Origin: Bacillota bacterium | Lineage (GTDB): Bacteria; Bacillota; Dethiobacteria; DTU022; UBA8154 | Reading direction: 5' to 3' | Length of the DNA stretch: 34,277 nucleotides | Assembly: GCA_012839215.1 (NCBI GenBank) | Contig: DUNV01000088.1 | Coordinates: forward strand, 1 to 34,277 | Shown here: positions 9,274 to 33,323 of the stretch, one piece after another | Position numbering within the stretch: position 1 is the first letter of the stretch | Layout of the letters: every line of letters begins with the position of its first letter | Notes under the pieces: model-generated | Seen by the model: only the letters and a program-made list of their open reading frames with translations | Database searches by the model: none | What the model was told of the DNA's origin: nothing | Made by a program: the position numbers and the translations under genes

Positions 9274-11379
9274 ATGGATAACATGGATAACACTGCCAAA
9301 ACCATCGAAATACTCCGCAATAAATGCGCCTTACAGGAAATGCAAATCGCTGAATTACAGGCCAAACTGAGCTGGTTTGAGGAGCAGCTTGGCCCGGGCC
9401 TGATGCAACATTTTGCTGAAAACAATAGGCCCCCCTATCAACAACCGTTTCAACCTTACCGGGAAACCAAACACGGGGCTAAACCTCCCCTGCATAAGCC
9501 TGCCTTAAAAAAGGCAAGCAACCATTACAAAAAGCAGGCCCACTTCGGGGCCGGGATCCAGCAAGAGGATCCCTCGGCAAAAACCGTGGAAAACAGCCCG
9601 CCTTTGGATTATATCAGAAAATATAAATATATGCTTTTCCATGACCCCCTTACTGGCGTTTTCAACCGGGCCTATTTTGAACAGGAAATGCTACACCTGG
9701 CTAACGGGCGCTTTAACCCGGTCGGCATCATCATTGCCGATATAGATGGTCTCAAAATAGTAAATGATAGTCTGGGACACAAAGCCGGAGATAAACTATT
9801 GATTACTGCTGCCCATTTCATCAAAAAATGTGTCCGCAACAGCGATATAGTATCACGCATCGGCGGCGATGAGTTTGCTATTTTATTGCCCCGTTGCAAC
9901 ACGAGGATGCTGGAAAAAACCTGCCGGCATATTAAAGAGGAAATCGCTGCCTACAACCGTGAGCACATCAATACGATACCGCTAGGCCTATCTATAGGTT
10001 ATGCCATTGATCATAAAGTTCCCCTCAACATCGATAGGCTTTTTAAAAAGGCTGATGATCGCATGTACCGGGAAAAATTACACCACCGGCAAAGCACCCG
10101 CAGCGACATCGTTTGTACATTGGCCAATACATTGGCAGCAAGAGATAGGGTTACTGGAAAACATGCTGAGCGCATGAAGGAACTGGTTGAAAGCCTGGCC
10201 AGGGCCATGGCACTTTCCGATCACCAAATATCCGATCTAAGCCTGCTGGCCCGCTTTCATGATATCGGCAAGGTGGGTCTGCCGGATGATATCCTCTTTA
10301 AAAAAGGACCTTTGTGCAAGGAAGAACAGATAGAAATGCAGCGCCACTCCGAAATAGGCAGTCGAATAGCCCGATCATCGGTCGAGTTGGCCCCTATCGC
10401 TGATTGGATTTTAAAACACCACGAGAGATGGGATGGCAAGGGTTACCCCTTGGGACTTCAGGGCGAAGAAATCCCTCTGGAATGCCGCATTATAGCTATC
10501 ACCGATGCCTATGATGCCATGGTCAGCGATCGGCCCTACCGCAAGGCAATGTCCCGTGCTGCTGCCCTCAAGGAAATCCAAAGGTGTGCAGGAACGCAGT
10601 TTGATCCCACCCTGGCCAAGAAATTTGTAAATTTAGTCGTTTTGGCTACCACCACCAGCACCCTTGACAGCGGACTCCTTGGTGTCCTGGTACCCATATT
10701 TAAGGCACAGACCGGCTATGATCTAAGAATAGTAGCCGTCGGCAGTGGGGAAGCTTTGAGGATGGGCAAAACAGGGCACGCGGACGTATTACTGGTGCAT
10801 GCCCCCAAGCATGAATGGCCCCTGGTGTTAGAACGGGTGGCCATAAACTACCAGCTGGTGATGCACAATGATTTTGTTCTGCTCGGACCTTCTTCTGATC
10901 CTGCCAAGGTAGGCAACACTACCAGCATTGTTGAGGCATTCAAAAAAATTGCCGCCCACCAGGCTCCCTTCATTTCCCGGGGCGATGATTCGGGAACAGA
11001 CAAAATGGAAAAGGACATCTGGGGCAAGGCTGCTGTTAATCTTCAGGAGAAAGCCTGGTACCTGGAAACAGGGCAGGGCATGGGCGCAGCCATTGCCAGT
11101 GCCGATGAAAAACAGGCCTATATACTCAGCGATCGGGGTACATTTCTGGCCAAATCAAAAAATACAACACTCAAGATCGTCTGCGAGGGAGACGAAGCGC
11201 TTAAAAACATCTACCATGTCATGCAAATCAGCCCGAAAAAATTCGCCTGGATTAATGAGGCGGGTGCAAGAGCGTTTGTAGAATTTATGATCAATGAAGA
11301 AACACAACGGATCATCAAAAATTTTCATGTAGACAGGTTTGGGGAGCCCTTATTTTTCCCCGACAGGTTGCAAGGTTGA
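9274..11379 (+). CDS. GGDEF - HD-GYP - TupA-like tungstate-binding fusion protein
   Basis: 701 residues in three parts. (1) An N-terminal coiled-coil-like segment (7-40) and a Pro/Lys-rich linker lead to a GGDEF diguanylate cyclase domain (about 117-270) with DPLTGVFNRAYF (124-135), an intact GGDEF (197-201) and an I-site RNSD (188-191) exactly five residues before it. (2) An HD-GYP phosphodiesterase domain (about 278-450) with HDIGK (329-333) and HHERWDGKGYP (382-392). (3) A periplasmic-binding-protein-like domain (about 455-695) matching TupA: ATTTSTLDSGLL (458-469), ADVLLVHAP (503-511), SRGDDSGT (568-575) and WYLETGQGMG (595-604). TupA is normally a secreted tungstate lipoprotein of an ABC transporter, but here there is no signal peptide or membrane segment, so the domain is inferred to be cytoplasmic. 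The protein would make and degrade c-di-GMP under control of an oxyanion. Start ATG 9274 has a weak AGGT site; ATG 9283 is an alternative. Confidence 0.93.
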   Translation: MDNMDNTAKTIEILRNKCALQEMQIAELQAKLSWFEEQLGPGLMQHFAENNRPPYQQPFQPYRETKHGAKPPLHKPALKKASNHYKKQAHFGAGIQQEDPSAKTVENSPPLDYIRKYKYMLFHDPLTGVFNRAYFEQEMLHLANGRFNPVGIIIADIDGLKIVNDSLGHKAGDKLLITAAHFIKKCVRNSDIVSRIGGDEFAILLPRCNTRMLEKTCRHIKEEIAAYNREHINTIPLGLSIGYAIDHKVPLNIDRLFKKADDRMYREKLHHRQSTRSDIVCTLANTLAARDRVTGKHAERMKELVESLARAMALSDHQISDLSLLARFHDIGKVGLPDDILFKKGPLCKEEQIEMQRHSEIGSRIARSSVELAPIADWILKHHERWDGKGYPLGLQGEEIPLECRIIAITDAYDAMVSDRPYRKAMSRAAALKEIQRCAGTQFDPTLAKKFVNLVVLATTTSTLDSGLLGVLVPIFKAQTGYDLRIVAVGSGEALRMGKTGHADVLLVHAPKHEWPLVLERVAINYQLVMHNDFVLLGPSSDPAKVGNTTSIVEAFKKIAAHQAPFISRGDDSGTDKMEKDIWGKAAVNLQEKAWYLETGQGMGAAIASADEKQAYILSDRGTFLAKSKNTTLKIVCEGDEALKNIYHVMQISPKKFAWINEAGARAFVEFMINEETQRIIKNFHVDRFGEPLFFPDRLQG

Positions 11380-11558: not shown

Positions 11559-12290
11559 TTACCTTCCTCGCGGTTGGTGCCGCCCCCGGGGTTGAACACT
11601 TACATCGGGATTTTTATCCCCGAACCTCTCCATAATATCATCCAATATTTCCTTCCTGCCAAGGCCCTTTTGTTCTTTTGTTTTGATCAGTTTATATACA
11701 GCAAAGGTGGGTGAAGGACCGATTTCCGAGGAAAAATGGCCTATGCCCTGGTTCCAGGCCAGAAGCGTAAAAAGTTCATCTAGCTCCCGGACAGTTACAC
11801 CCAGGGAATAAGCCTTGATGAGCTCCCGTGTGGCCTGCCTGAACCGGGAGGCACCCATGGCGTTACTCATTGAAAGAAGAAGTTTTGTTTTAAGATCTAT
11901 TGCTGCATCCTCCGTCTCCCAAACCTGTTCCCAAAAATCCACCACCGTGCCCGCAAGTATATCGCTAATCACCTTATAATTTAAGATTGCGGTGGGCTTA
12001 AAGGGCATATCGGCCCCGCTTTCATAGGTAATAGTATTCATTTCTGTCCGGTAAAAATAACACCTGTACTCATGATCAGAAACCTTTTCTGTCACGTGTT
12101 CAAACCCCAGATCATTGAGGGCCGAATAGAGGGGTTTCGGCTCAAAGCTCTGCACGACACATAGGCCGCTATTAAGATCCACCTTTTGCGCCTGGCGCAA
12201 AATCATCGGTAAAAAATTGTTTGTCAAATTCCTTACATCAATTACCTCAAAACTGCTTTTCTTATCCTGCCAGTCAACTGCCATATCCAT
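11559..12290 (-). CDS. DUF2249 domain fused to an AhpD/carboxymuconolactone-decarboxylase-like domain
   Basis: 243 residues from ATG 12290. Residues about 13-80 (FEVIDVRNLTNNF, then SGLCVVQSFEPKPLYSAL, then GFEHV) match DUF2249, a TusA-like fold common in anaerobic redox and nitrogen-oxide contexts. Residues about 130-205 (KTKLLLSMSNAMGASRF, RELIKAYSLGVTVRELDELF, LLAWNQGIGHF) have the helical pattern of the AhpD/CMD superfamily, but the CxxC of AhpD peroxidases is absent. The C-terminus is a low-complexity QPRGRHQPRGR. The start follows GAGGAGAGG; ATG 12284 is an alternative with better spacing. A longer TTG start would overlap the RelE remnant and has no ribosome binding site. Function is unknown; a redox or small-molecule enzyme is inferred. 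Confidence 0.65.
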   Translation of the reverse strand: MDMAVDWQDKKSSFEVIDVRNLTNNFLPMILRQAQKVDLNSGLCVVQSFEPKPLYSALNDLGFEHVTEKVSDHEYRCYFYRTEMNTITYESGADMPFKPTAILNYKVISDILAGTVVDFWEQVWETEDAAIDLKTKLLLSMSNAMGASRFRQATRELIKAYSLGVTVRELDELFTLLAWNQGIGHFSSEIGPSPTFAVYKLIKTKEQKGLGRKEILDDIMERFGDKNPDVSVQPRGRHQPRGR

Positions 12291-12300
12291 TCCTCTCCTC

Positions 12301-12485
12301 TTAATGTATTTTTTCGCCTCTTCCTTGCCCAATTTTAATTACTATTATCCTAATCCAGACGTTGTCCATTTCCACAATTATCCCATAATTACCAACCCTG
12401 TATCGCCAGGAATACCTTGCAGCCTGGCATATTCGTTAAAAAGTTTTGTTTACTGCTTGTTCAATTCTGCTGTAACTGTGCCCAT
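12301..12485 (-). pseudogene. Decayed RelE/ParE-type toxin gene
   Basis: Two overlapping leftward frames together resemble a RelE/ParE toxin. From ATG 12485 (GGAG 8 nt upstream) the first frame reads MGTVTAELNKQ, a TAA (12452-12450), then TKLFNEYARLQGIPG. A second frame from about 12408 reads WRYRVGNYGIIVEMDNVWIR and then IIVIKIGQGRGEKIH before TAA at 12301. The WRYRVGxYxIIxE...VxIxIGxxR pattern is characteristic of the toxin C-terminal half. The frame change near GGTATTCCTGG and the internal TAA indicate loss of function. No antitoxin gene is recognisable beside it. The remnant ends 10 nt before the DUF2249 gene and explains most of the gap to the next gene. Confidence 0.55.
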
Positions 12486-17598: not shown

Positions 17599-19320
17599 TC
17601 AGTAGTGGACGTGCAGCAGCTCCTTGGCCCTGCCCCTCAGGACGCCTTTATAAAGCCCGGCCAGGAGGGGATTTTCCTCGGATTGCCTTATTTGTGATAG
17701 CTTATCGGCCCGATAGAGGCCGTCGGAGCGGCTTTTCTTGACAGGTTTCAGGCCGAAGGGTTGCCCGCCACCACCGACGCAGCCGCCGGGGCAGGCCATC
17801 GCCTCAATAAAATCATAATGAACCTCGCCGGCCAGAATCTTTTTAATGATTTCATCTATATTTTTAAGCCCGTTGACCACGGCAATTTTTAATTTTTCAT
17901 CGCCGACAGTAACCTCCGCTTCCTTGGCCCCTTCCAGCCCCCGGATACCGGTATAGGCTATGTCCAGTATGGCCTCCATGCTTTTATCCTCGGCCACCCG
18001 CCGGATAACCGCCTCGCTTACACCGCCCGTGACACCAAAAATTACGCCTGCGCCGCTGTGTATTCCAAAGGGCATATCCGGGGCCTCAGGCTCCAGATCA
18101 GCAAAAACGATTCCCGCCTCCCTAAACATTTTGACCAGCTCCTGGGTGGTGATGACATGATCGATATCCGCAATGCCATCGCGGTAAAACTCTTCCCTGA
18201 CAGCCTCAAATTTTTTGGCCGTGCAAGGCATGATGGCTACATTGATAATTGTTTTGGAATCCCCCACGTCATGCCTTTTGGCATGCTCTTTAATGACCGC
18301 ACCGAGCATCTGCATTGGCGATTTGCAGGAGGAAACCAGATCCTTAAGTTCCGGATACCTCTTTTCCATAAAGCAAATCCAGGCAGGACAGCAGGAGGTA
18401 AACAGTGGGAGGTTTTCTTTACTGCGAAGCCTTTCCAGGAATTCGGCGGACTCTTCCATAACCGTCAGATCAGCTCCCAGGGAAGTATCATAAACCCTGT
18501 CAAAACCCAGCATTCTAAGCCCTGCCACAATTTTTCCCATGACATTTTCCCCGGAAACGAGGCCAAACTCTTCACCAAAGGCCACGCGGACTGCCGGAGC
18601 AACCTGGGCAATAACCTGCTTGTCCCCATCGTAAAGATCCTTCCAAACAGCCGGGCAATCACATTTAACCGTGATGGCCCCCGTCGGGCAGACCGCAGCG
18701 CACTGCCCACAGTGGACACAATCGGTTGCGATGATCGGGTCACCAAAGGCAGTGCTGACCATCATCCCAGAGCCCCTTCCTTTAAAATCTATGGCCCCCA
18801 CATTTTGCACCTCGGCGCACATGCGTACACAATCGCCGCAAAGAATACATTTATTGGGATTCCTCACGATAGAAAAGCTGGAATTGTCGATGGGAAGATC
18901 ATGCCTTTTGAAACTTTCCCCATTGAAACGGATACCGGTAATGCTGAAACGAATGGCCAGCTCCTGCAGGAGGCATTTTCCATTTTTGGGGCAGGTGGTA
19001 CAATCACGGCAATGGGATGAAAGCAGCAGCTCCAAGATCATTTTCCTGTGTTTTTGCAGTTTGGGAGTACTGGTCTTAACTTTAAGGCCATCTTTGGGGG
19101 GCGTCTGGCAAGAGGCCAAAATTTGCCCTCGCTCGTCTTCCACTACACACATACGGCAGGCACCATAGACCGAAAGTTCGGAATGGTAACAAAAAGTAGG
19201 AAGATCAACCCCCGCTTGGCGCACCACCTCGAGGACATTCCTTTCTCCATTCAGTTCTACCCTGCGCCCATCCACCCACATGAATTCTTTTTTTACAGTT
19301 TTCATTTCGTTATCATTCAC
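17599..19320 (-). CDS. hydA: [FeFe] hydrogenase catalytic subunit of the trimeric NAD(P)-linked type
   Basis: 573 residues, cytoplasmic. Domains in order: [2Fe-2S] ferredoxin-like (Cys44, 55, 58, 71), His-Cys3 [4Fe-4S] (His103, Cys107, 110, 116), two [4Fe-4S] clusters (about 158-168 and 201-211), then the H-cluster domain with TSCCPAW (308-314), MPCTAKKFE and MACPGGCVGGGGQ. All three H-cluster motifs are canonical, so it should be active. With HydB- and HydC-like partners just upstream it fits the group A3 enzymes that couple H2 to NAD(P)H and often to ferredoxin (electron bifurcation). Start is GTG 19320, 9 nt after AAGGAGG; ATG 19305 is an alternative. It starts 4 nt after the hydB stop and is the last gene of the operon. 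Confidence 0.95.
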   Translation of the reverse strand: MNDNEMKTVKKEFMWVDGRRVELNGERNVLEVVRQAGVDLPTFCYHSELSVYGACRMCVVEDERGQILASCQTPPKDGLKVKTSTPKLQKHRKMILELLLSSHCRDCTTCPKNGKCLLQELAIRFSITGIRFNGESFKRHDLPIDNSSFSIVRNPNKCILCGDCVRMCAEVQNVGAIDFKGRGSGMMVSTAFGDPIIATDCVHCGQCAAVCPTGAITVKCDCPAVWKDLYDGDKQVIAQVAPAVRVAFGEEFGLVSGENVMGKIVAGLRMLGFDRVYDTSLGADLTVMEESAEFLERLRSKENLPLFTSCCPAWICFMEKRYPELKDLVSSCKSPMQMLGAVIKEHAKRHDVGDSKTIINVAIMPCTAKKFEAVREEFYRDGIADIDHVITTQELVKMFREAGIVFADLEPEAPDMPFGIHSGAGVIFGVTGGVSEAVIRRVAEDKSMEAILDIAYTGIRGLEGAKEAEVTVGDEKLKIAVVNGLKNIDEIIKKILAGEVHYDFIEAMACPGGCVGGGGQPFGLKPVKKSRSDGLYRADKLSQIRQSEENPLLAGLYKGVLRGRAKELLHVHY

Positions 19321-19324
19321 TTTA

Positions 19325-21247
19325 TTACCCCTCCTTTATGGCGCCAAATTTGCATGTAGCCAGGCAGGCTTTGCATTTGATACATTTTGTCACATCAATA
19401 ATAAAGGTTTGCTTGACCTCCCCGCTGATGGCCCCAACTGGACAGACCCGGGAGCAGCGGGCGCAACCCCGGCAGAGCGGGGCATCGATATAGATCGTTT
19501 TAAGGGCCTCGCAGGTCCCCGCCGGGCACCTTTTTTCCTGTACATGGGCATTATATTCATCCCGAAAATATTTAATGGTACTGACGACCGGAGAACCGGC
19601 AGTTTTACCCAACCCACAAAGGGAGGTGGCTGAAATTGTATCTTCCAATTCAAGCAGAAGGTCAATATCCTTTGGCTCCCCCCGCCCTTCCACAATGCGC
19701 TCTAGGATGCCGAGCATGGCCCTGGTACCCTCCCGGCAAGGCACACATTTACCACATGATTCATTCTGGGTAAATTTCATAAAGAAACGGGCCACATCGA
19801 CCATGCAGGTATCCTCATCCATGACGACAAGACCACCGGAACCGATGATGGCCCCCACTTTTTTTAGTGATTCAAAGTCAAGAGGCAGATCCAAATGTTC
19901 GCCCGTCAGGCACCCGCCGGAGGGACCACCAATCTGCACAGCTTTAAAGGCCCTATCATTTTTTATGCCGCCGCCAATATCAAAAACAATTTCTCTCAGG
20001 GTGGTACCCATAGGTACCTCAATGAGTCCGGTATGCCTAACATTGCCGGTCAGGGAAAAAATCTTTGTCCCCGGGCTGTCGACAGTGCCGATTTTGCGGT
20101 ACTCGGCTGCCGTCATGTTAATAATTACCGGAACATTGGCAAATGTCTCAACATTGTTTAAAACTGTGGGTTTGCCAAACAGGCCCTGCTCCACTGTCCG
20201 GGGAGGTTTTACCCGGGGCATCCCCCTGTTTCCCTCGATTGAAGCCGTCAGGGCGCTGCCCTCCCCACAGACAAAGGCACCCGCACCCTGGTTGATATGA
20301 ATTGTAAAAGGAAAATCCGTTCCCAGAATGTGCTCACCCAAGAGTCCATATTTTTCGGCTTGCCGGAGGGCATTGTTGAGCCGCCTAATGGCCAGCGGAT
20401 ATTCTGCCCGGACGTAGATAAAACCCTCCCTGGCGCCCGTGGCCACACCAGCAACGATCATGCCTTCCAGCAATCTGTGGGGATCACCTTCCATGATGCT
20501 TCTATCCATAAAGGCGCCGGGATCCCCTTCATCCCCGTTGCAGACCACATATCTTACCGGCTCATCCTGCAGTCTAACCTGATCCCATTTCCTTCCTGTT
20601 GGAAATCCCCCTCCCCCCCGTCCACGCAAACCCGCCTCACATATCTCCCGGCAGATCCTTTCCGGTGAAAATTCAAAGAGGGCTTTTTCAAGTGCCGCGT
20701 AGCCCCCGCCGGCAATGTATTCCTCGATAGATTCTGCATCGCTTTCCCCACTTTGCGCCCGGACAAGGCCTATCTGTTTCTGATAAAAGGGAATTTCCTT
20801 ACGTGTAGGGTAAGTAGCCCCCCCCTGCCGAAAAAGCAGCCTTTCTACCGGACGATCCCCGACAATGCTTGTCTCCAGTATTTCTTGGCAATCTTCCAGT
20901 TTCACCTTAAGAAACAGCCAGCCGGCCGGCTCAATGCGGATAAGCGGCCCCATCTCACAAAAACCATGGCAGCCACTTTTTTTAATACCGATACTTTCCT
21001 TCCCCATTATTTCCACAGGCCGATCCTTCTTTTCCAGCTCCCTGCCCAATTCCACAGCACAATCAATACCACGTTCCCGGCAAAGAGATTTGAGCTTGTC
21101 ATATATTTCCAGAGAACCCCCGGCCACACAACCAGTTTCAGCACAAATAAGAACCTTCTTTTTCTGCCGGTTTAAAGTAGAAACGAAATTGTACCGGGCC
21201 TCCTGAAGATCCGCTCTAGAGGTGAATTTTTTCACGTTTCTTTCCAT
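19325..21247 (-). CDS. hydB: Hydrogenase NADH-binding subunit, NuoF-like (HydB/HndC)
   Basis: 640 residues. An N-terminal thioredoxin-like [2Fe-2S] domain (Cys35, 40, 93, 97) is fused to a NuoF-type flavoprotein with the FMN/NAD loop RGRGGGGFPTGRKW (about 209-222), a [4Fe-4S] site ESCGKCVPCREG, and a C-terminal two-cluster ferredoxin domain (CRGCARCSRVCP and CIKCKACLATCK). It carries FMN, binds NAD(H) and passes electrons to HydA. Because the thioredoxin-like part is fused, no separate HndB subunit is needed. ATG 21247 follows AAGGAGG by about 10 nt and overlaps the end of the preceding gene by 32 nt, suggesting coupled translation. Confidence 0.95.
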   Translation of the reverse strand: MERNVKKFTSRADLQEARYNFVSTLNRQKKKVLICAETGCVAGGSLEIYDKLKSLCRERGIDCAVELGRELEKKDRPVEIMGKESIGIKKSGCHGFCEMGPLIRIEPAGWLFLKVKLEDCQEILETSIVGDRPVERLLFRQGGATYPTRKEIPFYQKQIGLVRAQSGESDAESIEEYIAGGGYAALEKALFEFSPERICREICEAGLRGRGGGGFPTGRKWDQVRLQDEPVRYVVCNGDEGDPGAFMDRSIMEGDPHRLLEGMIVAGVATGAREGFIYVRAEYPLAIRRLNNALRQAEKYGLLGEHILGTDFPFTIHINQGAGAFVCGEGSALTASIEGNRGMPRVKPPRTVEQGLFGKPTVLNNVETFANVPVIINMTAAEYRKIGTVDSPGTKIFSLTGNVRHTGLIEVPMGTTLREIVFDIGGGIKNDRAFKAVQIGGPSGGCLTGEHLDLPLDFESLKKVGAIIGSGGLVVMDEDTCMVDVARFFMKFTQNESCGKCVPCREGTRAMLGILERIVEGRGEPKDIDLLLELEDTISATSLCGLGKTAGSPVVSTIKYFRDEYNAHVQEKRCPAGTCEALKTIYIDAPLCRGCARCSRVCPVGAISGEVKQTFIIDVTKCIKCKACLATCKFGAIKEG

Positions 21248-21731
21248 AGTTTCCAGCCTCCTTTTCCCTAATCTTATTCAAGCAGGCCAACGCCTTTTCG
21301 GGCGTCATTTCAGCAAATATTTGCTCGTTGATGGAAATCACGGGTGAAAGGCCGCAAGCCCCCAGGCAGGAAACGGTTTCTACAGTAAAAAGCATATCAT
21401 CAGTAGTTGTTTTATCCTTATCCAACCCAAGCCCCTCCCGGATTGTTTTAAGAATGGAGGCAGATTTGCGCACATGGCAGGCAGTCCCATCACAAACCCG
21501 GACAATATACCTGCCCTTTGGCCTTAGGGAAAAATTCTCATAAAAGGTCGCCACGCTATAAATCTTGGCCGGGCTGACACCCAGTTTTTTGGCGACATAC
21601 TCGAGAGCCTGCCGTGGCAGGTACCTGTACTCGTGTTGAATCTTTTGCATGATGGCAATCAAGGCCCTTTTATCACCATTACAACTTGTTAGAATGTGGT
21701 CCAACGTTGCTCGATCTTTTCCTTCCACCAT
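21216..21731 (-). CDS. hydC: Hydrogenase NuoE-like [2Fe-2S] subunit (HydC/HndA)
   Basis: 171 residues. Thioredoxin-like domain with Cys80, Cys85, Cys122 and Cys126 (VCDGTACHV and VSCLGACGL) for one [2Fe-2S] cluster, preceded by a helical domain (YLPRQALEYVAKKLGVSPAKI). It works with the NuoF-like subunit in NAD(P)H exchange. The ATG at 21731 follows GGAGG by about 9 nt. The gap to the CAP gene upstream is only 33 nt and I see no promoter in it, so the CAP promoter may drive the hydrogenase too. Order hydC-hydB-hydA is the common one for this enzyme. Confidence 0.93.
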   Translation of the reverse strand: MVEGKDRATLDHILTSCNGDKRALIAIMQKIQHEYRYLPRQALEYVAKKLGVSPAKIYSVATFYENFSLRPKGRYIVRVCDGTACHVRKSASILKTIREGLGLDKDKTTTDDMLFTVETVSCLGACGLSPVISINEQIFAEMTPEKALACLNKIREKEAGNYGKKREKIHL

Positions 21732-24692: not shown

Positions 24693-24747
24693 ATTCTGCC
24701 ATTCTGTCATTCTGTCATTTTGTCAATTTTGTCATTTTGCTATTATG
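24693..24747. repeat. Degenerate 8-bp tandem repeat
   Basis: ATTCTGCC, ATTCTGTC, ATTCTGTC, ATTTTGTC, AATTTTGTC, ATTTTGCT, ATTATG: about seven units of 8 (once 9) bases run up to and into the stop codon of the debranching gene. Confidence 0.7.
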
Positions 24748-27700
24748 TAAGTTCCACCCCGGGGATTCCAGAGGCAGAACGGGTGCGGTGATATTTTTCT
24801 GTCAGGTCCCTTAACTTTCCTGCCAGCTCCCCGTTCAAAAGATTTCCGGGGAAACGCCACTGCCAGTTGCCTTCCGCCGTACCCGGCAAATTCATGCGGG
24901 CCTCCGAGCCCAGGCAGAGAATATCCTGTAAGGGTATAATAACGATACGGGCGTCACTGCGCAGGGCCATCTCGATAAAATGCCAGCATACTTCTTTCTC
25001 ATCGTGGAGTTTTTCCCCCTTCTCCCCCTTTTTTCCTGTCGCGTACCATCCCAGCAGCGTATCGTTATCATGGGTACCTGTATAAAGTACATTTTCCTTG
25101 TCAAAGAGGGGCAGCTTCAGTTTTTGGTCCAGATGCGGCTTGATCATAAATTGCAGCACCTTCATCCCCGGGTAGCCCAGCCTGGTTTTCATTTCTTCCA
25201 CCTCGGGAGTTATGACCCCCAGGTCTTCGGCTATTACAGGAAAATCGCCGAGGGCTTCCTGCAAGCGGAAAAAGAATTTTTCTCCCGGGCCCTTGACCCA
25301 GCGGCCTTCGGTCGCATCTTTTCCCCCCGCGGGGACCTCCCAGTAGGCCTCAAAGCCGCGGAAATGATCGATGCGAACCAAGTCAACCAGTCGGAAAAGG
25401 ACCTTAAAACGTTCCTCCCACCAGCGGTAATTATCCTTTTCCATTTCACCCCAACGGTAGTGGGGATGGCCCCATAACTGACCCTTTTCACTGAAATAAT
25501 CCGGCGGCACCCCGGCCACCTTGAGAGGGTTCCCCTCTGCATCAAGCTCAAAAAGGTGAGGGTTACACCAGACATCGGCGCTATCATGGCTGATGAAGAT
25601 AGGCAGGTCCCCGATTAACCTAATACCTTTTTCCCCGGCATCTTTTTTAAGTTCCTCCCACTGGCTGAAAAAGATAAACTGTAAAAATTTGTGATATTCA
25701 ATATCAACGGAGAGACCTTCCCTATATTTTTTCAGGGCGTTCTCCCGGCGGGTAGCCACTGCCTCTTCCCACTGATTCCAGGGCTTACCCTCAAAATAAC
25801 GCTTTAGGGCCATAAAAAGGGCATAATCTTCAAGCCACCCGGCATTTTGCCGACAAAATTTTTCATAATCGGGATTTTGGGGTAGTGTGGTAAACTTTTG
25901 AAAGGCCTTCCTTAAATTTTTCTCCTTAAACTGCATAACTTCCCCAAAGTCCACTCTATTCTCAGGAAACTCCGGAAGACTTTTCTCGTCAAAGCCCATC
26001 AGCAAGCCCCCTTCGCTGAGCCTATCTAGATCGATCAGCAGGGGATTGCCGGCAAAAGCGGAAAAACATTGATAAGGAGACTGGCCCAACCCTGGGGGGT
26101 TTAGAGGTAATATTTGCCAATACCTTTGTTCGCTTTGCACCAGGAAATCAAGAAATCCATAGGCCCCCTTGCCCATATCACCGATACCAAATCTGGACGG
26201 CAGTGAGGTGGGATGAAGCAGTATGCCACTTTCACGGGTGTAATTCAAGTTAGCTGACCACCTGTCGTTTAAAAGTATCCTGCATTCCAAAGGTTTGAGT
26301 GTGAGTTCCAAACGATCATTAGTCAAGAAAATTTTACGATAATCATCAAGCAAATCGACAACGTTTCCCCGAATACTGCTCCCCGGATCAATAGAAACGG
26401 TTTTTTCCTTATGTACATCGCGATTAAGAATGATGATCGCAGCGTTATCTAGCGCCACCTGTTCGGTGGCACCACGGCCTCCCTCAACAACCCTAGTATA
26501 GGCATAAACGCTTCCGGAGGCACAAACTGTTTTCCACCAGCCGCTGCGTAACACATCATAATGATTTCTCAACGCAATAAGGGTCCGGTACCAATCAAGA
26601 AGATCCTTGTCTTCCCGACCCCAAGGATATGTTCCCCGATTGGAGGGATCCTTACCCCCCTCCAGTCCGGCTTCGTCACCATAGTAGATACAGGGAACCC
26701 CGGGGAAGGTCAGCTGCCAAAGCGTGACGAGCTGGAGCCTTTTAAACTTTAGCCTTTCCTTTTCTTCCCGAGAAATACCCTGTGGTAGACCATCCTGCAG
26801 CACCGTCAAAAGACGTGGGACATCATGATTCCCCAGCAAATTCATCGTGCTATAAAACGATTGCAGCGGATAATTCTCAAAGATGCCCATCAGGGATTGC
26901 TCTACCTGCTCGGCATCGAGGTGTCCCAAGGCGAAATTTAGGATAATACTGCGTAAGGGATAGTTTGTCACCCCGTCCAGTTCATCCCCTAAAAGATACT
27001 CCCTCCTTTCCCCATAGCTAATCTTGTTGGAGGCATCCTCCCAAACTTCTCCGATGAGGACAGATTCGCTATCTAGCTCTTTCATCTTTTCATGCAACTT
27101 TTTTAGAAATTCCCCCGGTAGTTCATCAGCGACATCCAACCGCCAGCCCTTGATACCCGCAGCCAACCATTTCTTTAGAACACTATTCTCTCCATAAATG
27201 ATCAAGTTCATGTAGGACAAATTTAGTTCGTTGACATTGGGCAGGGTATCAATTCCCCACCAGCAATCATAACGATGGGGATATTCCAGAAAACGGTACC
27301 AGCCATAGTATGGTGAATCAGGCGATTGGAAGGCTCCGATCCCAGGATAATTCCCTTCCTTGTTAAAATAAATACTGTCGCTTCCCGTATGGCTAAAAAC
27401 ACCATCCAGTATAATATATATACCCAACCCTGCGGCCTCTTTGCAAAGCTGGGCAAATTGTTCATCTGTGCCCAGCATGGGATCAATCTTGTGGTAATCG
27501 GCTGTATCATACCTATGATTGCTCGGGGATTCAAAAACCGGGTTGAAATAAAGAAGGGAAACACCCAGATTTTTCAGATAGGGAAGTTTCTTTCTAATCC
27601 CTTCCAGGTTCCCGCCAAAAAAATCCCAGCGAATCACCCTGCCGGAGGGATCGCGGATATAAACCGGGGTATTTTCCCAATGCGAATGGATGAGACTCTC

Positions 27701-28267
27701 TTTTTTGGGATTCAATACTTTCCCATCCCCAAGGCCATTATAAAAACGATCGGGAAAGATCTGGTAGATAACCGCCTCCTTCAACCAAGTGGGGGTTCTA
27801 AAACCCTCCCTATAGATCGTAATCTGGTAGGATGGCGGTACATGATCAGCAATACAGCCCAACCCGCCAGTTTTTAGTGAAGAATTGCCATAATAAAAAA
27901 GTGCCCCCCCGTCCCTGATCATAAAATAGTACCATAGCAAACAGGGCTCTTCCGGAGCTGAAATTTCCTTTATAAAGATTTGCCTGTCACCCCTAACCTT
28001 TTCCAGGGTCATGGGCAGCTCTTCTGTATGACTTTTACCATTCTTCTCCCTGATAAGAAATAAACTTACTTTTTCAGCTGCAGGAGCATAGTCAGCTGCC
28101 GGCTTATTCTTCACGGCAAACCGCAGGACAATCCTTTTATGGCAGGGCACCGCACCGAAGGGATTTCGAAAAAAAGTATCATGGGAGTTATGCCAAAAAC
28201 GATCTGTTTCCAAAAGCCGATCAACCTCCTGCCTAAAAACAACTTTTATAATGTTTGCCAGTTCCAA
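24743..28267 (-). CDS. Bifunctional glycogen debranching (GH13) / 4-alpha-glucanotransferase (GH77, MalQ) fusion
   Basis: 1174 residues. The N-terminal part has a starch-binding-like beta domain (about 25-155) and a GH13 neopullulanase/debranching barrel (about 160-665) with nucleophile Asp378 (GWRLDVADEL), acid/base Glu407 (LIGEVWED) and His481-Asp482 (LLGNHDVPR). The second part (about 678-1174) is a full MalQ: SGILLHPTSLPSRFGIGDMG, Asp967 (LVRIDHFRGF), Glu1014-Asp1015 (VIAEDLGVI) and THDND (1065-1069). It would remove branches left by phosphorylase and rearrange the maltodextrins. The fusion is known in Firmicutes. TTG 28267, 1 nt after the glgP stop, has no ribosome binding site; TTG 28213, 11 nt after AGGAGG, would give a start a few residues before FWHNSHDTFFRNPFGAVP, as in relatives, and may be the true start. 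Confidence 0.93.
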   Translation of the reverse strand: MELANIIKVVFRQEVDRLLETDRFWHNSHDTFFRNPFGAVPCHKRIVLRFAVKNKPAADYAPAAEKVSLFLIREKNGKSHTEELPMTLEKVRGDRQIFIKEISAPEEPCLLWYYFMIRDGGALFYYGNSSLKTGGLGCIADHVPPSYQITIYREGFRTPTWLKEAVIYQIFPDRFYNGLGDGKVLNPKKESLIHSHWENTPVYIRDPSGRVIRWDFFGGNLEGIRKKLPYLKNLGVSLLYFNPVFESPSNHRYDTADYHKIDPMLGTDEQFAQLCKEAAGLGIYIILDGVFSHTGSDSIYFNKEGNYPGIGAFQSPDSPYYGWYRFLEYPHRYDCWWGIDTLPNVNELNLSYMNLIIYGENSVLKKWLAAGIKGWRLDVADELPGEFLKKLHEKMKELDSESVLIGEVWEDASNKISYGERREYLLGDELDGVTNYPLRSIILNFALGHLDAEQVEQSLMGIFENYPLQSFYSTMNLLGNHDVPRLLTVLQDGLPQGISREEKERLKFKRLQLVTLWQLTFPGVPCIYYGDEAGLEGGKDPSNRGTYPWGREDKDLLDWYRTLIALRNHYDVLRSGWWKTVCASGSVYAYTRVVEGGRGATEQVALDNAAIIILNRDVHKEKTVSIDPGSSIRGNVVDLLDDYRKIFLTNDRLELTLKPLECRILLNDRWSANLNYTRESGILLHPTSLPSRFGIGDMGKGAYGFLDFLVQSEQRYWQILPLNPPGLGQSPYQCFSAFAGNPLLIDLDRLSEGGLLMGFDEKSLPEFPENRVDFGEVMQFKEKNLRKAFQKFTTLPQNPDYEKFCRQNAGWLEDYALFMALKRYFEGKPWNQWEEAVATRRENALKKYREGLSVDIEYHKFLQFIFFSQWEELKKDAGEKGIRLIGDLPIFISHDSADVWCNPHLFELDAEGNPLKVAGVPPDYFSEKGQLWGHPHYRWGEMEKDNYRWWEERFKVLFRLVDLVRIDHFRGFEAYWEVPAGGKDATEGRWVKGPGEKFFFRLQEALGDFPVIAEDLGVITPEVEEMKTRLGYPGMKVLQFMIKPHLDQKLKLPLFDKENVLYTGTHDNDTLLGWYATGKKGEKGEKLHDEKEVCWHFIEMALRSDARIVIIPLQDILCLGSEARMNLPGTAEGNWQWRFPGNLLNGELAGKLRDLTEKYHRTRSASGIPGVELT

Positions 28268-28268
28268 A

Positions 28269-30695
28269 TTAGATAGTCAAAGGCTGCAATCCCCAGGTTT
28301 CCGAGGCATACTGGGCAATGGTCCGATCGCTGGAAAATTTGCCTGAGTGGGCAACATTAATAATAGACATTTTAAGCCACCTGGACCGATCCTTAAATGC
28401 TTCCCCTATTCTTTCCTGAGCATATACGTAGGAATGGAAATCCTTGAGGACAAAAAATTCATCGTTATGCCTGAGCAGGGAATCCATAATTGTACTGAAT
28501 TCTCCCCGCCCGGCTGTATAGAAACCCTCCTGTATCTGATTGAGAATCTTTTTGACCCGTATATCACTTTGGCAGATGTCCAAGGGTGAATAGCCACCAT
28601 AACGATAATAACTAAGGACCTCGCTAGGGGAAAGCCCAAAAATGAACATATTGTCAGAACCCACCTGTTCCAAAATCTCAATATTTGCCCCATCCAGGGT
28701 CCCCAGCGTCACCGCTCCATTCATCATGAATTTCATGTTCCCCGTTCCAGAGGCTTCCTTACTGGCGGTAGAAATCTGCTCACTCACATTTGCAGCCGGA
28801 ATAATCTTCTCTGCCAGGGAAACACGATAGTTGTTCAAGTAAATGACTTTGATTATATCATTGACCCTATTATCATTATTGATCACCCCGGCAACAGTAT
28901 TGATTAGTTTAATGATTCTTTTGGCCAGGTAATAACCCGGGGCAGCCTTTCCGCCAAAGATAAAGGTACGGGGATGGATATCCAGGTTGGGGTTATCTTT
29001 AAGGCGGTTGTATAGATCGATAATATGGAACAAATTGAGAACCTGACGTTTATAGGCGTGAATCCGTTTGACATGGACATCAAAGATGGAATCTATATCC
29101 ACATCTAGATCACATTCCTCTTTGATATAATGGGCCAGCCCCAATTTGTTTTGCTGCTTGATCTCATAAAACCTTTCCTGGAAGCCGGCATCAGTGGCAT
29201 AGGAGATCAACCTTTCAAATTCTTGAGGATTATGGATCCAAGAAGTGCCGATCGTTTCACTAATGAGATTTGACAATCCCGGGTTGGCCTTGAGCAACCA
29301 GCGGCGATGGGTGATCCCGTTTGTTTTATTATTAAATTTCCGTGGAAACATTTCATAGAAATCTTTCATCTCTTTTTTTTGTAGGATCTTGGTATGGATT
29401 TCGGCCACCCCATTGACACTGTAGCTACCGACAATGGCCAAATTGGCCATCTTGACCTTTCCATCGGCGATAATGGCCATCTTCCTGATACGCTCCCAAT
29501 CACCGGGATAAAGCTCCTCCAACTGCAGGCAAAAGCGCCTGTTTAACTCCTCTACGATCATATAGATTCTGGGAAGTAGCCCCTTGAACATATCCACCGG
29601 CCAGGTTTCCAGTGCCTCTGACATCGTTGTATGGTTAGTATAGGAAATCGTCTGGCAGGTAATGGCAAAAGCCTCTTCCCATCCCATTCCTTCATCATCC
29701 ATAAGCACACGCATCAGTTCCGGTACCGCCAGGGCCGGGTGGGTATCGTTGATATGGAAGGCATTCCTAAGGTGGAATTCCTTAAGTGAATAATTACGCC
29801 GCTTATACCAGCGGATAATGCTTTGCACCCCAGCAGAAACAAAAAAATATTCCTGTTTGAGGCGCAGTATCCTTCCCTCATAGTTTGTATCATCAGGATA
29901 AAGAAACTGTGAGATCGACTCCACAGAATATTTATATTCGAGAAACTTCTGCTGGCTACTATGGGCCATGGCAGAGACATCCTTATTCGTGAAAATGCCC
30001 TCGGCACTCCAGAGCCTGAGTGTGTTAACTGTTTTGTTGTTATAACCGATAATGGGCAGATCATAGGGAACAGCAAGGACGATATCACAGTCTTCATGGT
30101 GCACAACGTAACCATCCTCGAGTTCTTCCAACCAGACGTGCCCACCAAAACAGACCTCCACAGCCCTGTCTGCCTTACGAATTTCCCAGACATTACCATC
30201 CCTGAGCCAGTATTCCGGTAACTCAACCTGGTAACCTTCCACAACCTTTTGTTCAAAAAGGCCATATTTATAACGTATCCCACAGCCGTGCCCGGGAAGG
30301 GAAAGCGAAGCGAGTGAATCCAAAAAACATGCCGCCAGGCGTCCCAAGCCACCATTGCCTAGCCCCGCATCCGGCTCCTGGATTTCCAGGTCCGTAAAAT
30401 CTACCCCCAATTCCCGCAATCCTTGCCGGCAGGTATCATAAAAACCCAGGTTGATCAAATTATTTCCCAGAAGCCTTCCCAGGAGGAATTCCATGGAAAA
30501 ATAATAGACCTGTTTTTGGCCCTCGCTTTTATAGCGGCTGTTTGTAGCAATCCAGTTGCGGGAAACATATTCCCGGATCATTGTACCCAAGGTTAGATAT
30601 TTGTCCATATCCGTTGTTTCATCAATACTTTTTCCATGCATGGTTTCCAGTTTTTCCAGGAAGGCTGCCTTAAAACTTTCCTTATCGCTAAACAT
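28269..30695 (-). CDS. glgP: Glycogen/maltodextrin phosphorylase
   Basis: 808 residues, full length. PLP enzyme that releases glucose-1-phosphate from the non-reducing ends of alpha-1,4-glucans. The cofactor-lysine motif EASGTGNMKFMMNGAVTLGT lies near residue 650; other conserved blocks are EPDAGLGNGGLGRLAACFLD near 110, HINDTHPALAVPELMRVLMD and VKRIHAYKRQVLNL. It sits between the synthase gene glgA and the debranching fusion, so synthesis and breakdown genes share a transcript. ATG 30695 is 14 nt after the glgA stop, with GGAAT-type weak spacing; no better start is seen. Substrate preference, glycogen or maltodextrin, cannot be told from sequence alone. Confidence 0.96.
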   Translation of the reverse strand: MFSDKESFKAAFLEKLETMHGKSIDETTDMDKYLTLGTMIREYVSRNWIATNSRYKSEGQKQVYYFSMEFLLGRLLGNNLINLGFYDTCRQGLRELGVDFTDLEIQEPDAGLGNGGLGRLAACFLDSLASLSLPGHGCGIRYKYGLFEQKVVEGYQVELPEYWLRDGNVWEIRKADRAVEVCFGGHVWLEELEDGYVVHHEDCDIVLAVPYDLPIIGYNNKTVNTLRLWSAEGIFTNKDVSAMAHSSQQKFLEYKYSVESISQFLYPDDTNYEGRILRLKQEYFFVSAGVQSIIRWYKRRNYSLKEFHLRNAFHINDTHPALAVPELMRVLMDDEGMGWEEAFAITCQTISYTNHTTMSEALETWPVDMFKGLLPRIYMIVEELNRRFCLQLEELYPGDWERIRKMAIIADGKVKMANLAIVGSYSVNGVAEIHTKILQKKEMKDFYEMFPRKFNNKTNGITHRRWLLKANPGLSNLISETIGTSWIHNPQEFERLISYATDAGFQERFYEIKQQNKLGLAHYIKEECDLDVDIDSIFDVHVKRIHAYKRQVLNLFHIIDLYNRLKDNPNLDIHPRTFIFGGKAAPGYYLAKRIIKLINTVAGVINNDNRVNDIIKVIYLNNYRVSLAEKIIPAANVSEQISTASKEASGTGNMKFMMNGAVTLGTLDGANIEILEQVGSDNMFIFGLSPSEVLSYYRYGGYSPLDICQSDIRVKKILNQIQEGFYTAGRGEFSTIMDSLLRHNDEFFVLKDFHSYVYAQERIGEAFKDRSRWLKMSIINVAHSGKFSSDRTIAQYASETWGLQPLTI

Positions 30696-30709
30696 CTTAT
30701 TCTCATTCC

Positions 30710-32146
30710 TTACATTTCAAGTAGGCGCCCATAAAGGGCCCGATATTCCTGAGCGGAACCTTTCCAGCTAAAATCCGATGTTACTGCATTATTTACAAGG
30801 GTACCCCATAGTTCCTTGTTTTTATACAGACTTATCGCTTCTTGTATAACGAAGAGCAGATCATGGGCGTTATAACTGCTAAAGGTAAAACCGTTGCCCT
30901 TTCTACTGCCTGCATCAAAGGGAACAATAGTATCCTTGAGGCCACCCGTTTCCCGCACGATAGGTATGCTTCCGTAACGGAGGGCGATCAATTGCGTTAA
31001 TCCACAGGGCTCAAACCGTGAGGGGAGCAGGAACAAATCTGAGGCGGCATAGATTTTCCTGGCCAGCGGTTCATCAAACTGAAACAGTGCCACCATTTTT
31101 TGGGGGTAGCGGGCTGCCGCCTCACCAAAAAAGCGCTGGTATTTTTCCTCCCCGGTACCCAAAATAACCAACTGTAGGCCAAGATCCAATATTTCCTCCA
31201 GGACATGCCCAATCAGGTCAAGCCCTTTTTGTTCTACGAGCCTGTTCACAAAAGCCAGCATGGGAATTTCTTCCCCGGGCGGAAGCCCGAGGGATTCCTG
31301 TAATTTAACCTTATTGGCCCGCTTTTTGGGCAGTGAACTTCTGAAAGGGAAATAGATATGATCATCTTTCATGGGATCATACAGTGTATAGTCAATGCCA
31401 TTTAAAATTCCCACAAGGTTGTCACTCCTCTTACGCAATAGCCCATCAAGCTCCGCACCAAAGTACGGGGTTTGGATCTCCTCAGCATAGCTCCTGCTGA
31501 CAGTATTCAACAAATCGGAAAAAACTAAACCCCCTTTTAGATAACTTCCCCTGCCATAAAACTCCAGCGTGTCTGCGTTAAAATATTCTGGCCCCAGATC
31601 GAGCAGTTCCTCTAGCAGTTCAATGGGGAAATTCCCCTGATAATGGAGGTTATGTATCGTAAAAAGCGTGCGGATATTCTGATAAAAAGGCTCACTTCTA
31701 TAATGGGTTTTTAGAAAAACGCTGATTAGCCCTGTATGCCAATCATGACAGTGCAGGATACCGGGTCTAAAATCAAGTGAGGGAAGTGCCTCCAGGACTG
31801 CCCGGCAAAAAAAGGCAAAACGTTCAGCATCATCATCAAAGCCATAAATGCCGCTGCGGTTATAGTAATATTCGTTTTCCAGAAAGTAATAGGTTATCCC
31901 GTTGTGTTTTAATTGTTCAATTCCACAATGCTGGAATCTCCAACCCAATGAAACGGTAATACTTTTTACAAAGGTTGCCTTCCCCAGCAAGGCTGCAGGT
32001 ATATCTTTATATTTGGGGATAATAACCCGTGCATCCACGCCAAGCTTTATAAGTTCGGATGGAAGAGAACCCACCACATCGGACAGGCCCCCAGTTTTAA
32101 TAAAAGGGGAACATTCTGAGGCAACAAAAAGCACTTCCATCTTCAG
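30710..32146 (-). CDS. glgA: Glycogen synthase, ADP-glucose type (GlgA, GT5)
   Basis: 478 residues from ATG 32146. Transfers glucose from ADP-glucose to the growing alpha-1,4-glucan. The N-terminus MEVLFVASECSPFIKTGGLS carries the ADP-glucose-binding KTGGL (Lys15); the C-terminal domain has PSRFEPCGLTQLIALRYGSI with the catalytic Glu. An in-frame TTG 33 nt earlier lacks a ribosome binding site and would give an atypical leader, while AAGGAG overlaps the end of glgD 12 nt before the ATG. It starts 10 nt after the glgD stop, so coupling is likely. Confidence 0.96.
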   Translation of the reverse strand: MKMEVLFVASECSPFIKTGGLSDVVGSLPSELIKLGVDARVIIPKYKDIPAALLGKATFVKSITVSLGWRFQHCGIEQLKHNGITYYFLENEYYYNRSGIYGFDDDAERFAFFCRAVLEALPSLDFRPGILHCHDWHTGLISVFLKTHYRSEPFYQNIRTLFTIHNLHYQGNFPIELLEELLDLGPEYFNADTLEFYGRGSYLKGGLVFSDLLNTVSRSYAEEIQTPYFGAELDGLLRKRSDNLVGILNGIDYTLYDPMKDDHIYFPFRSSLPKKRANKVKLQESLGLPPGEEIPMLAFVNRLVEQKGLDLIGHVLEEILDLGLQLVILGTGEEKYQRFFGEAAARYPQKMVALFQFDEPLARKIYAASDLFLLPSRFEPCGLTQLIALRYGSIPIVRETGGLKDTIVPFDAGSRKGNGFTFSSYNAHDLLFVIQEAISLYKNKELWGTLVNNAVTSDFSWKGSAQEYRALYGRLLEM

Positions 32147-32156
32147 TTTCAACTCC

Positions 32157-33278
32157 TTATAATTTTTTTCTTTTTCCAATTACTATGGGGTTGCTCGACC
32201 CGCCAATTATTCTTCCACCACTTGATATTGTTACTTCCTTATCGAGTATAGCGAATTCAACATGAGAATTTTCCCCAATATGGCTTTTCTGCATAATAAT
32301 ACTATTTTCAATAAAGGCCCCTTTCTCAACTTTTACCCCGCGGGACAAAATACTACTGTTTACTGTTCCTTCCACTACACAGCCATTGGCTAGCAACGAA
32401 TTGGTAACATGGGAACCGTTTAAATATCTGCTGGGTGGTTCATCTTTTCCCTTTGTATAAATAAGGCCGGGCTCAAAAAAAAGGCTCTGCCGGATTTTCG
32501 GATTTAAAAGATCGATATTTGCCTGGTAATAATGTTCGATTGAGTTAATCTCCGCAAAATAGCTATCGATGGGCAAAGCATAGATGTTATATTCGTCCTG
32601 ATACTTAAAAATAATATCCCTGAAAAGATCCTCTGCCCCATTAATAATACCGCTTTCCACCATTTCTAATAAGAGCTGTTTCGATAAAATAAAGATTTCT
32701 ACCAGTGGCATACTCCCCTGCCCGGCTTTCGATCCCTTTTCAATTTGTAAAACCCGGCCAGAAGGGCTTTTAACTAGCCCGTAGCCCCAAGGGGAAGATG
32801 ATCCGTTCCCCATAGCAGCACGATAAAAAACTGTAATATCCGCTCTCTTTTCCTTGTGAAAAGCCATTGCTTTCCTAAAATTTAGATTACAAACCAGATT
32901 ACCCGGGGAAATGATGGCATCATTTTGCCGACAGCGCCCCAAAAAATCCAGCTGGCTATAAAATAATTTAATGTTACCCGGAAGGTTAGGTTGCGTGGAA
33001 TAAAAAATGTTGGGTGAAAGAATATGCAGGCCATCCTCCTTGCGGTTTAGATCCCACGATTTCCCGGTCTCCAGATGGTCCATCAAGGAACCATATTTAT
33101 AGAGCGTAAAAACAGCCACCCTTTGCAAGCCCGAATTGGCCATGCTGGAAAGAATAAAATCGACCAGTCGATACCGTCCCCCAAAGGGCACTGATGCAAT
33201 ACAACGGAAATCAGTTAGCTCACTAAGTATATCATCCTGAGCTTTTATATCGATGATTCCTAGAACATCTTTCATCAT
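32157..33278 (-). CDS. glgD: Glucose-1-phosphate adenylyltransferase regulatory subunit GlgD
   Basis: 373 residues from ATG 33278, 7 nt after AGGAGG; the frame is open 15 codons further but without a signal. GlgD is the GlgC paralogue of Firmicutes, which forms a heteromer with GlgC and modulates it while having little or no activity itself. N-terminal nucleotidyltransferase domain begins MMKDVLGIIDIKAQDDILSE; it lacks the GGxGTRL-like loop of GlgC, keeps SVPFGGRYRLVDF, and ends in a left-handed beta-helix (NSSILSRGVKVEKGAFIENS, SIIMQKSHIGENSHVE). Directly follows glgC (45 nt). Confidence 0.93.
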   Translation of the reverse strand: MMKDVLGIIDIKAQDDILSELTDFRCIASVPFGGRYRLVDFILSSMANSGLQRVAVFTLYKYGSLMDHLETGKSWDLNRKEDGLHILSPNIFYSTQPNLPGNIKLFYSQLDFLGRCRQNDAIISPGNLVCNLNFRKAMAFHKEKRADITVFYRAAMGNGSSSPWGYGLVKSPSGRVLQIEKGSKAGQGSMPLVEIFILSKQLLLEMVESGIINGAEDLFRDIIFKYQDEYNIYALPIDSYFAEINSIEHYYQANIDLLNPKIRQSLFFEPGLIYTKGKDEPPSRYLNGSHVTNSLLANGCVVEGTVNSSILSRGVKVEKGAFIENSIIMQKSHIGENSHVEFAILDKEVTISSGGRIIGGSSNPIVIGKRKKL

Positions 33279-33323
33279 CGTCCAGCCTCCTAGAAAAAGT
33301 TCATCCGGCCATAGAAGCTTCAC

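Follow-up and report, generated by a model that had tools for sequence, protein, structure and literature searches.

The reading frame at 9274..11379 on the plus strand of the window (the whole stretch of 34,277 nucleotides analysed here) raises the question whether it is what its translation suggests: a c-di-GMP enzyme that carries at its C-terminus a TupA-like domain able to sense tungstate, or a related oxyanion, inside the cell. The gene starts with ATG, is uninterrupted and encodes 701 amino acids in the order N-terminal helix/linker, GGDEF, HD-GYP and TupA-like domain. The N-terminal region (residues 1-117; 9274..9624, plus strand) comprises a charged helix and a Pro/Gln-rich linker; an IS66-transposase-like assignment considered for it was dropped, as Pfam yielded for these residues only a weak, sub-threshold SlyX match and no known domain. 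The GGDEF (diguanylate cyclase) domain (residues 122-273; 9637..10092, plus strand; Pfam, 1.6e-35) has kept intact both the GG[DE]EF signature and the inhibitory RxxD I-site (RNSDIVSRIGGDEF, residues 188-201; 9835-9876, plus strand) and is predicted to be a cyclase.

The HD-GYP domain, of the c-di-GMP phosphodiesterase type (residues 283-447; 10120..10614, plus strand; Pfam HD_5/HD-GYP, 2.8e-37), contains the HD motif FHDIGK from residue 328 (10255-10272, plus strand), QRHSEIG at residue 356 and HHERWDGKGYP from residue 381 (KHHERWDGKGYP; 10414-10449, plus strand). In the alignment with PmGH (4mcw) and other solved HD-GYP proteins all metal-ligand motifs (H, HD, H, HH, D) and the GYP motif are kept, and a Val (RDRVTGKH) stands in place of the extra Glu of the tri-iron site (E185 in PmGH). 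The Val at this position suggests a two-metal site; c-di-GMP, pGpG and cGAMP are candidate substrates of the predicted enzyme.

The TupA-like domain occupies residues 455-697 (10636..11364, plus strand), an assignment based on the NCBIfam model NF041772, PDB matches, the binding pocket and a structure model. NF041772 matches the whole of these residues (8.8e-65) with 218.7 bits, below the 400 bits that serve as its equivalog cut-off for bona fide importer TupA, and Pfam PBP_like_2 matches residues 456-676 (7.2e-36). The PDB sequence matches of this part are the TupA proteins 3muq, 3kn3, 3lr1 and 5my5. The family motifs TTTS (459-462), LVHAP (507), SRGDDSGT (568-575), ETGQGMG (598) and SDRGT (619) are present. 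Pfam, NCBIfam and the motif check thus bear out the original prediction of one frame with intact GGDEF (RxxD included), HD-GYP and TupA domains, and the three TupA motifs that it had named, TTTS, SRGDDSGT and WYLETGQGMG, were all found. Pfam detects no HTH in the protein. The HD-GYP/TupA junction (FDPTLAKKFVNLVVLATTTS; 10600..10659, plus strand) is tight, the TupA part starting about 10 residues past the FDP motif of HD-GYP.

The absence of a signal or membrane segment, from which a cytoplasmic location had been predicted, was supported by a 19-residue hydropathy scan of all 701 amino acids, which showed neither a signal peptide with lipobox nor any transmembrane segment. The highest value was 1.52 in the whole protein and 0.15 in its first 60 residues, against 2.6-2.9 in importer TupAs.

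The same order of GGDEF, HD-GYP and TupA, with one junction, was found in four independent assemblies that span two classes of one phylum: the window genome, a genome of another genus of the same family (G017) and two Desulfoscipio MAGs (G498 and G499). The G017 protein is 74% identical to that of the window and identical to the one on contig JAAZMP010000056.1. In G498 (L069) the protein has 1,295 amino acids, with several PAS regions ahead of GGDEF-HD-GYP-TupA, and in G499 the gene is divided between two contigs whose ends share an identical stretch of 55 nt. The N-terminus therefore varies, from helix/linker in the window through one PAS domain in G017 to several in G498, and despite this the junction and the three-domain order are constant in all four. 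A further PAS-GGDEF-HD-GYP-TupA copy with a broken frame lies in G499 (L082, contig C57), i.e. a duplication followed by decay, so the gene appears dispensable, at least as a duplicate. The E-values together with these orthologues exclude a chance match.

The flanks differ at each of the loci compared (window, G017 and G498). The window gene is accompanied by a CDF transporter and a DUF2249-like gene; in G017, as read from translations, HIT-like, MiaB-like and tRNA-modification-like genes are the neighbours, and in G498, likewise read, a chemoreceptor-like and a topoisomerase-like gene. The gene downstream of the fusion in the window (11559-12332, minus strand) encodes a protein of 257 amino acids that matches DUF2249 only below threshold and has a distinct region at its C-terminus. 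That the fusion arose in assembly or binning has a negligible probability: the window assembly is fragmented (156 contigs), but the identical junction in the three other assemblies, amid different flanking genes, refutes this explanation, and the window is free of N, with GC and GC3 of the fusion like those of its neighbours. Recurrence in other genomes had been proposed as a check of the original prediction and argues in its favour. Nearness to tup/mod genes, proposed along with it, was not seen: none of the neighbouring genes that were read around the fusions is of this kind, neither tupB nor tupC adjoins the fusion, and the tupABC genes of the window genome lie elsewhere, on contig C46 (L059), with moeA nearby. 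On the whole the prediction stands as regards the domains, the cytoplasmic placement, the pocket (below) and recurrence, and is not borne out as regards this nearness at the loci read.

The architecture is very rare. It was present in 2 of 98 genomes of the window's own class and in 2 of 113 of the Desulfoscipio class, and among 399 genomes drawn evenly from the phylum the window genome alone had it. A scan of 84,980 species with two short peptide patterns, which diverged fusions would escape, returned the G017 and Desulfoscipio copies only; the in-depth survey covered Bacillota-type genomes. Long frames at TupA in two further genomes of the window's family, G018 (L063:4422-6143) and G006 (L064:4227-5894), were rejected as signalling fusions, since in them TupA is followed in one frame by the TupB permease.

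The origin of the domain was traced in a maximum-likelihood tree built from 123 TupA domains. Those of the four fusions form one clade (support 100/98) nested among the lipoprotein importer TupAs of Desulfoscipio and relatives, and the importer TupA of the window genome itself is remote from them (44% identity to the fused domain). The tree rejects an origin from the host's own importer TupA as well as from its HTH-TupA regulators (see below). The nearest non-fused GGDEF-HD-GYP relatives, about 60% identical, are found in relatives of Desulfoscipio, those in the window's family reaching 56% at most, and such non-fused paralogues stop 10-25 residues past the FDP motif, near the point at which the TupA part of the fusions starts. 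Tree nesting, nearest non-fused relatives and the shared end point together argue for a single capture, in which a Desulfoscipio-type, mature importer TupA, minus its signal, was joined to the C-terminus of a GGDEF-HD-GYP protein. The site of this capture was most likely the Desulfoscipio group, from where horizontal transfer most likely carried the gene to the family of the window, a direction that we infer; its GC and GC3 now match the surroundings. That the domain derives, as read from the tree, from an importer TupA belonging to a different bacterial lineage goes beyond the original prediction.

The pocket of the D. alaskensis importer TupA is formed by T9-11, S12, H59, R118, T124 and D170 (PMC5517513), to which T459, T460, T461, S462, H509, R569, T575 and D620 of the window protein correspond in the alignment. 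None of the eight is changed in any of the four fusions, although their alignment is invariant in only 150 of 251 columns. At 72 importer-conserved columns the fusions deviate 1-3 times, importers 2.1 times on average and the HTH-TupA regulators 17.7 times; in the latter TTTS is changed to STME. A model of the TupA domain (pLDDT 92) superimposes on apo TupA (5my5) with a TM-score of 0.90 and an rmsd of 1.6; the full-length model is good over GGDEF-HD-GYP and leaves the TupA part unresolved, the alignment being too shallow there. The complete oxyanion pocket that had been predicted is thus upheld by the eight conserved residues and by a TupA-like model, and the structure prediction suggested as a check gave a match to 5my5 with the pocket residues present.

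Between the window and G017 proteins dN was 0.17 (0.15-0.2) over TupA and 0.15 over HD-GYP, with dS near saturation, values which indicate that the TupA part is under strong purifying selection and evolves about as slowly as HD-GYP. These data bear on the reading that a neutral fusion placed an importer TupA after a GGDEF-HD-GYP gene, where it has no function of its own. The rarity of the architecture and the broken duplicate in G499 would suit it; nevertheless, a dN of 0.15-0.2, as low as in HD-GYP while synonymous change is saturated, and retention across two classes with no pocket residue lost make it very improbable. The dN values and the conserved pocket likewise speak against a functionless TupA relic.

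The affinity of importer TupA is in the pM range for tungstate and in the nM range for molybdate (PMC5517513). This is the main difficulty for a sensor role: at pM affinity very little tungstate in the cytosol would fill an unchanged pocket, which would rarely be empty, so that either the affinity must be lowered elsewhere, e.g. by the change of G521 to R/Q, or free tungstate must be buffered, a small TOBE protein being encoded in the window genome. Residue 521 is Gly in nearly all importers and HTH regulators and Arg or Gln in all fusions, a change that might tune affinity or coupling.

Part of the same evidence could be taken to mean that the domain binds the oxyanion but does not control the enzyme, acting as a tungstate buffer or a mere stabiliser of the protein. 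The importer-like affinity residues would indeed suit a binder better than a tuned sensor. Attachment to GGDEF-HD-GYP brings a buffer no gain, however, the direct junction is constant in the four fusions while the N-terminus varies, and a Mop-like protein (the one small TOBE protein of the window genome) is available for storage; we regard this reading as improbable.

The host genome provides a fitting background. Four AOR-family genes and tupABC agree with the tungsten-using anaerobe that had been supposed, and each of the other fusion genomes has at least four AOR-family genes. Two proteins in which a LysR/ModE-type HTH is followed by a TupA-like domain (L057:2848-4029 and L058:2400-3584) are encoded on contigs C112 and C120 of the window genome, the one on C120 adjoining a moaA-like gene; a gene of the same type lies upstream of tupABC in another genome (L060:5681-6871, G012). 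These are probably cytosolic, oxyanion-responsive regulators. Their layout resembles that of TaoR, described as an HTH plus PBP-like regulator of a tungsten aldehyde oxidoreductase (PMC11980592), with an HTH of a different type. The HTH-TupA proteins, AOR genes, TOBE protein and TaoR precedent together indicate that tungsten use and cytoplasmic TupA-like oxyanion sensing are at home in this host.

As side observations on its way of life, the minus strand of the window encodes a set for an NADH-dependent (group A6-like) [FeFe] hydrogenase with HydA-like, NuoF-like and thioredoxin-like ferredoxin proteins (17599-21731), consistent with a fermentative or syntrophic anaerobe; a glycogen cluster (24743-33323) with an amylase/4-alpha-glucanotransferase two-domain protein, phosphorylase, glycogen synthase and a GlgC-like nucleotidyltransferase; and a SpoIIP homologue (691-1752), which suggests a spore-forming lineage.

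Alternatively, the domain might be a cytosolic sensor chiefly of molybdate or another oxyanion rather than of tungstate. Importer TupA binds molybdate at nM, changes of R118 alter W/Mo selectivity (PMC5517513), with R118E in the D. alaskensis protein doing away with binding altogether, and moeA and moaA stand beside tup or HTH-TupA genes in the window genome. On the other hand, the pocket is the same as in importer TupAs, which favour tungstate about 1000-fold (PMC5517513), and the several AOR-family genes of the genome belong to a usually tungsten-dependent family; we consider the molybdate reading unlikely, if less so than that of a passive binder.

As for c-di-GMP itself, the fusion protein has matches at 16 places in the window genome, almost all of them to its c-di-GMP part. 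Three of the four fusion genomes, including that of the window, encode a PilZ protein, which may be an effector, and a search of the window genome for c-di-GMP-I riboswitches found none.

We consider it fairly probable, judging from sequence, that the fusion works in the cytoplasm as a one-component c-di-GMP enzyme, with the TupA domain at its C-terminus as the sensor of intracellular tungstate, or molybdate. The two TupA lobes would close on the oxyanion in the cytosol, and as hardly any linker separates TupA from the last HD-GYP helix, closure would be expected to act on HD-GYP, perhaps also on GGDEF, directly or via HD-GYP, and hence alter local c-di-GMP. The N-terminal PAS domains of the orthologues may add a second input. 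That ligand binding switches the predicted HD-GYP phosphodiesterase is a guess, little better than even. The protein as such is well supported, and its TupA domain is a plausible tungstate switch.

When compared with known systems, the domain shares the PBP type II fold (TM 0.90) and all eight pocket residues with the importer TupAs of D. alaskensis G20 (5my5) and Geobacter (3lr1); it is about 41% identical to 5my5 and descends from an importer TupA. Unlike importer TupA it has no signal peptide, lipobox or adjoining tupBC, is carried on GGDEF-HD-GYP and scores under the equivalog cut-off. TaoR and the HTH-TupA proteins of the host share with it a cytoplasmic output, a TupA/PBP-like sensor and ties to tungsten genes, their output being DNA binding; the HTH-TupA proteins differ further in their separate TupA clade, altered TTTS and LysR-type HTH. 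That cytoplasmic TupA-like sensors have precedents in the HTH-TupA proteins and TaoR is a second point beyond the original prediction.

PBP-clan domains on c-di-GMP enzymes are described in a review as periplasmic, and SBP_bac_3 alone as studied (PMC8846402). In RmcA (SBP_bac_3, L-arginine) and V. cholerae CdgH a Venus-flytrap sensor is attached to a c-di-GMP protein, as in the fusion, but it is N-terminal, periplasmic and linked via a membrane helix, whereas the fusion has a C-terminal, cytosolic sensor of the TupA family and no transmembrane segment. DgcZ, the CZB zinc-sensing diguanylate cyclase, resembles the fusion in its cytoplasmic metal input to c-di-GMP and differs in sensing a zinc cation on a helical bundle, without HD-GYP or an oxyanion pocket. 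The literature search found no description of a W/Mo-responsive c-di-GMP enzyme, nor of a soluble GGDEF-HD-GYP protein that ends in an importer-grade TupA, in agreement with the earlier statement that no system of this kind had been described. What appears new is the combination, as Venus-flytrap c-di-GMP sensors and, from TaoR, cytosolic TupA-like sensing are each already known.

Most c-di-GMP enzymes have no assigned sensory input, and here the likely ligand is named in advance; with relatives already measured and pocket mutants known, the input is directly testable. We hold it an evenly balanced proposition that the fusion is the first tungstate- (or molybdate-) responsive second-messenger enzyme, in which a captured importer TupA binds tungstate in the cytosol and thereby directly switches c-di-GMP turnover in tungsten-using anaerobic Bacillota. 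The fusion is also a clear case of an uptake protein that was apparently turned to sensing inside the cell and has spread from one bacterial class to another. If the proposition holds, the status of a trace metal that limits the tungsten enzymes of these anaerobes would feed into the c-di-GMP signal, which in other bacteria controls attachment and motility.
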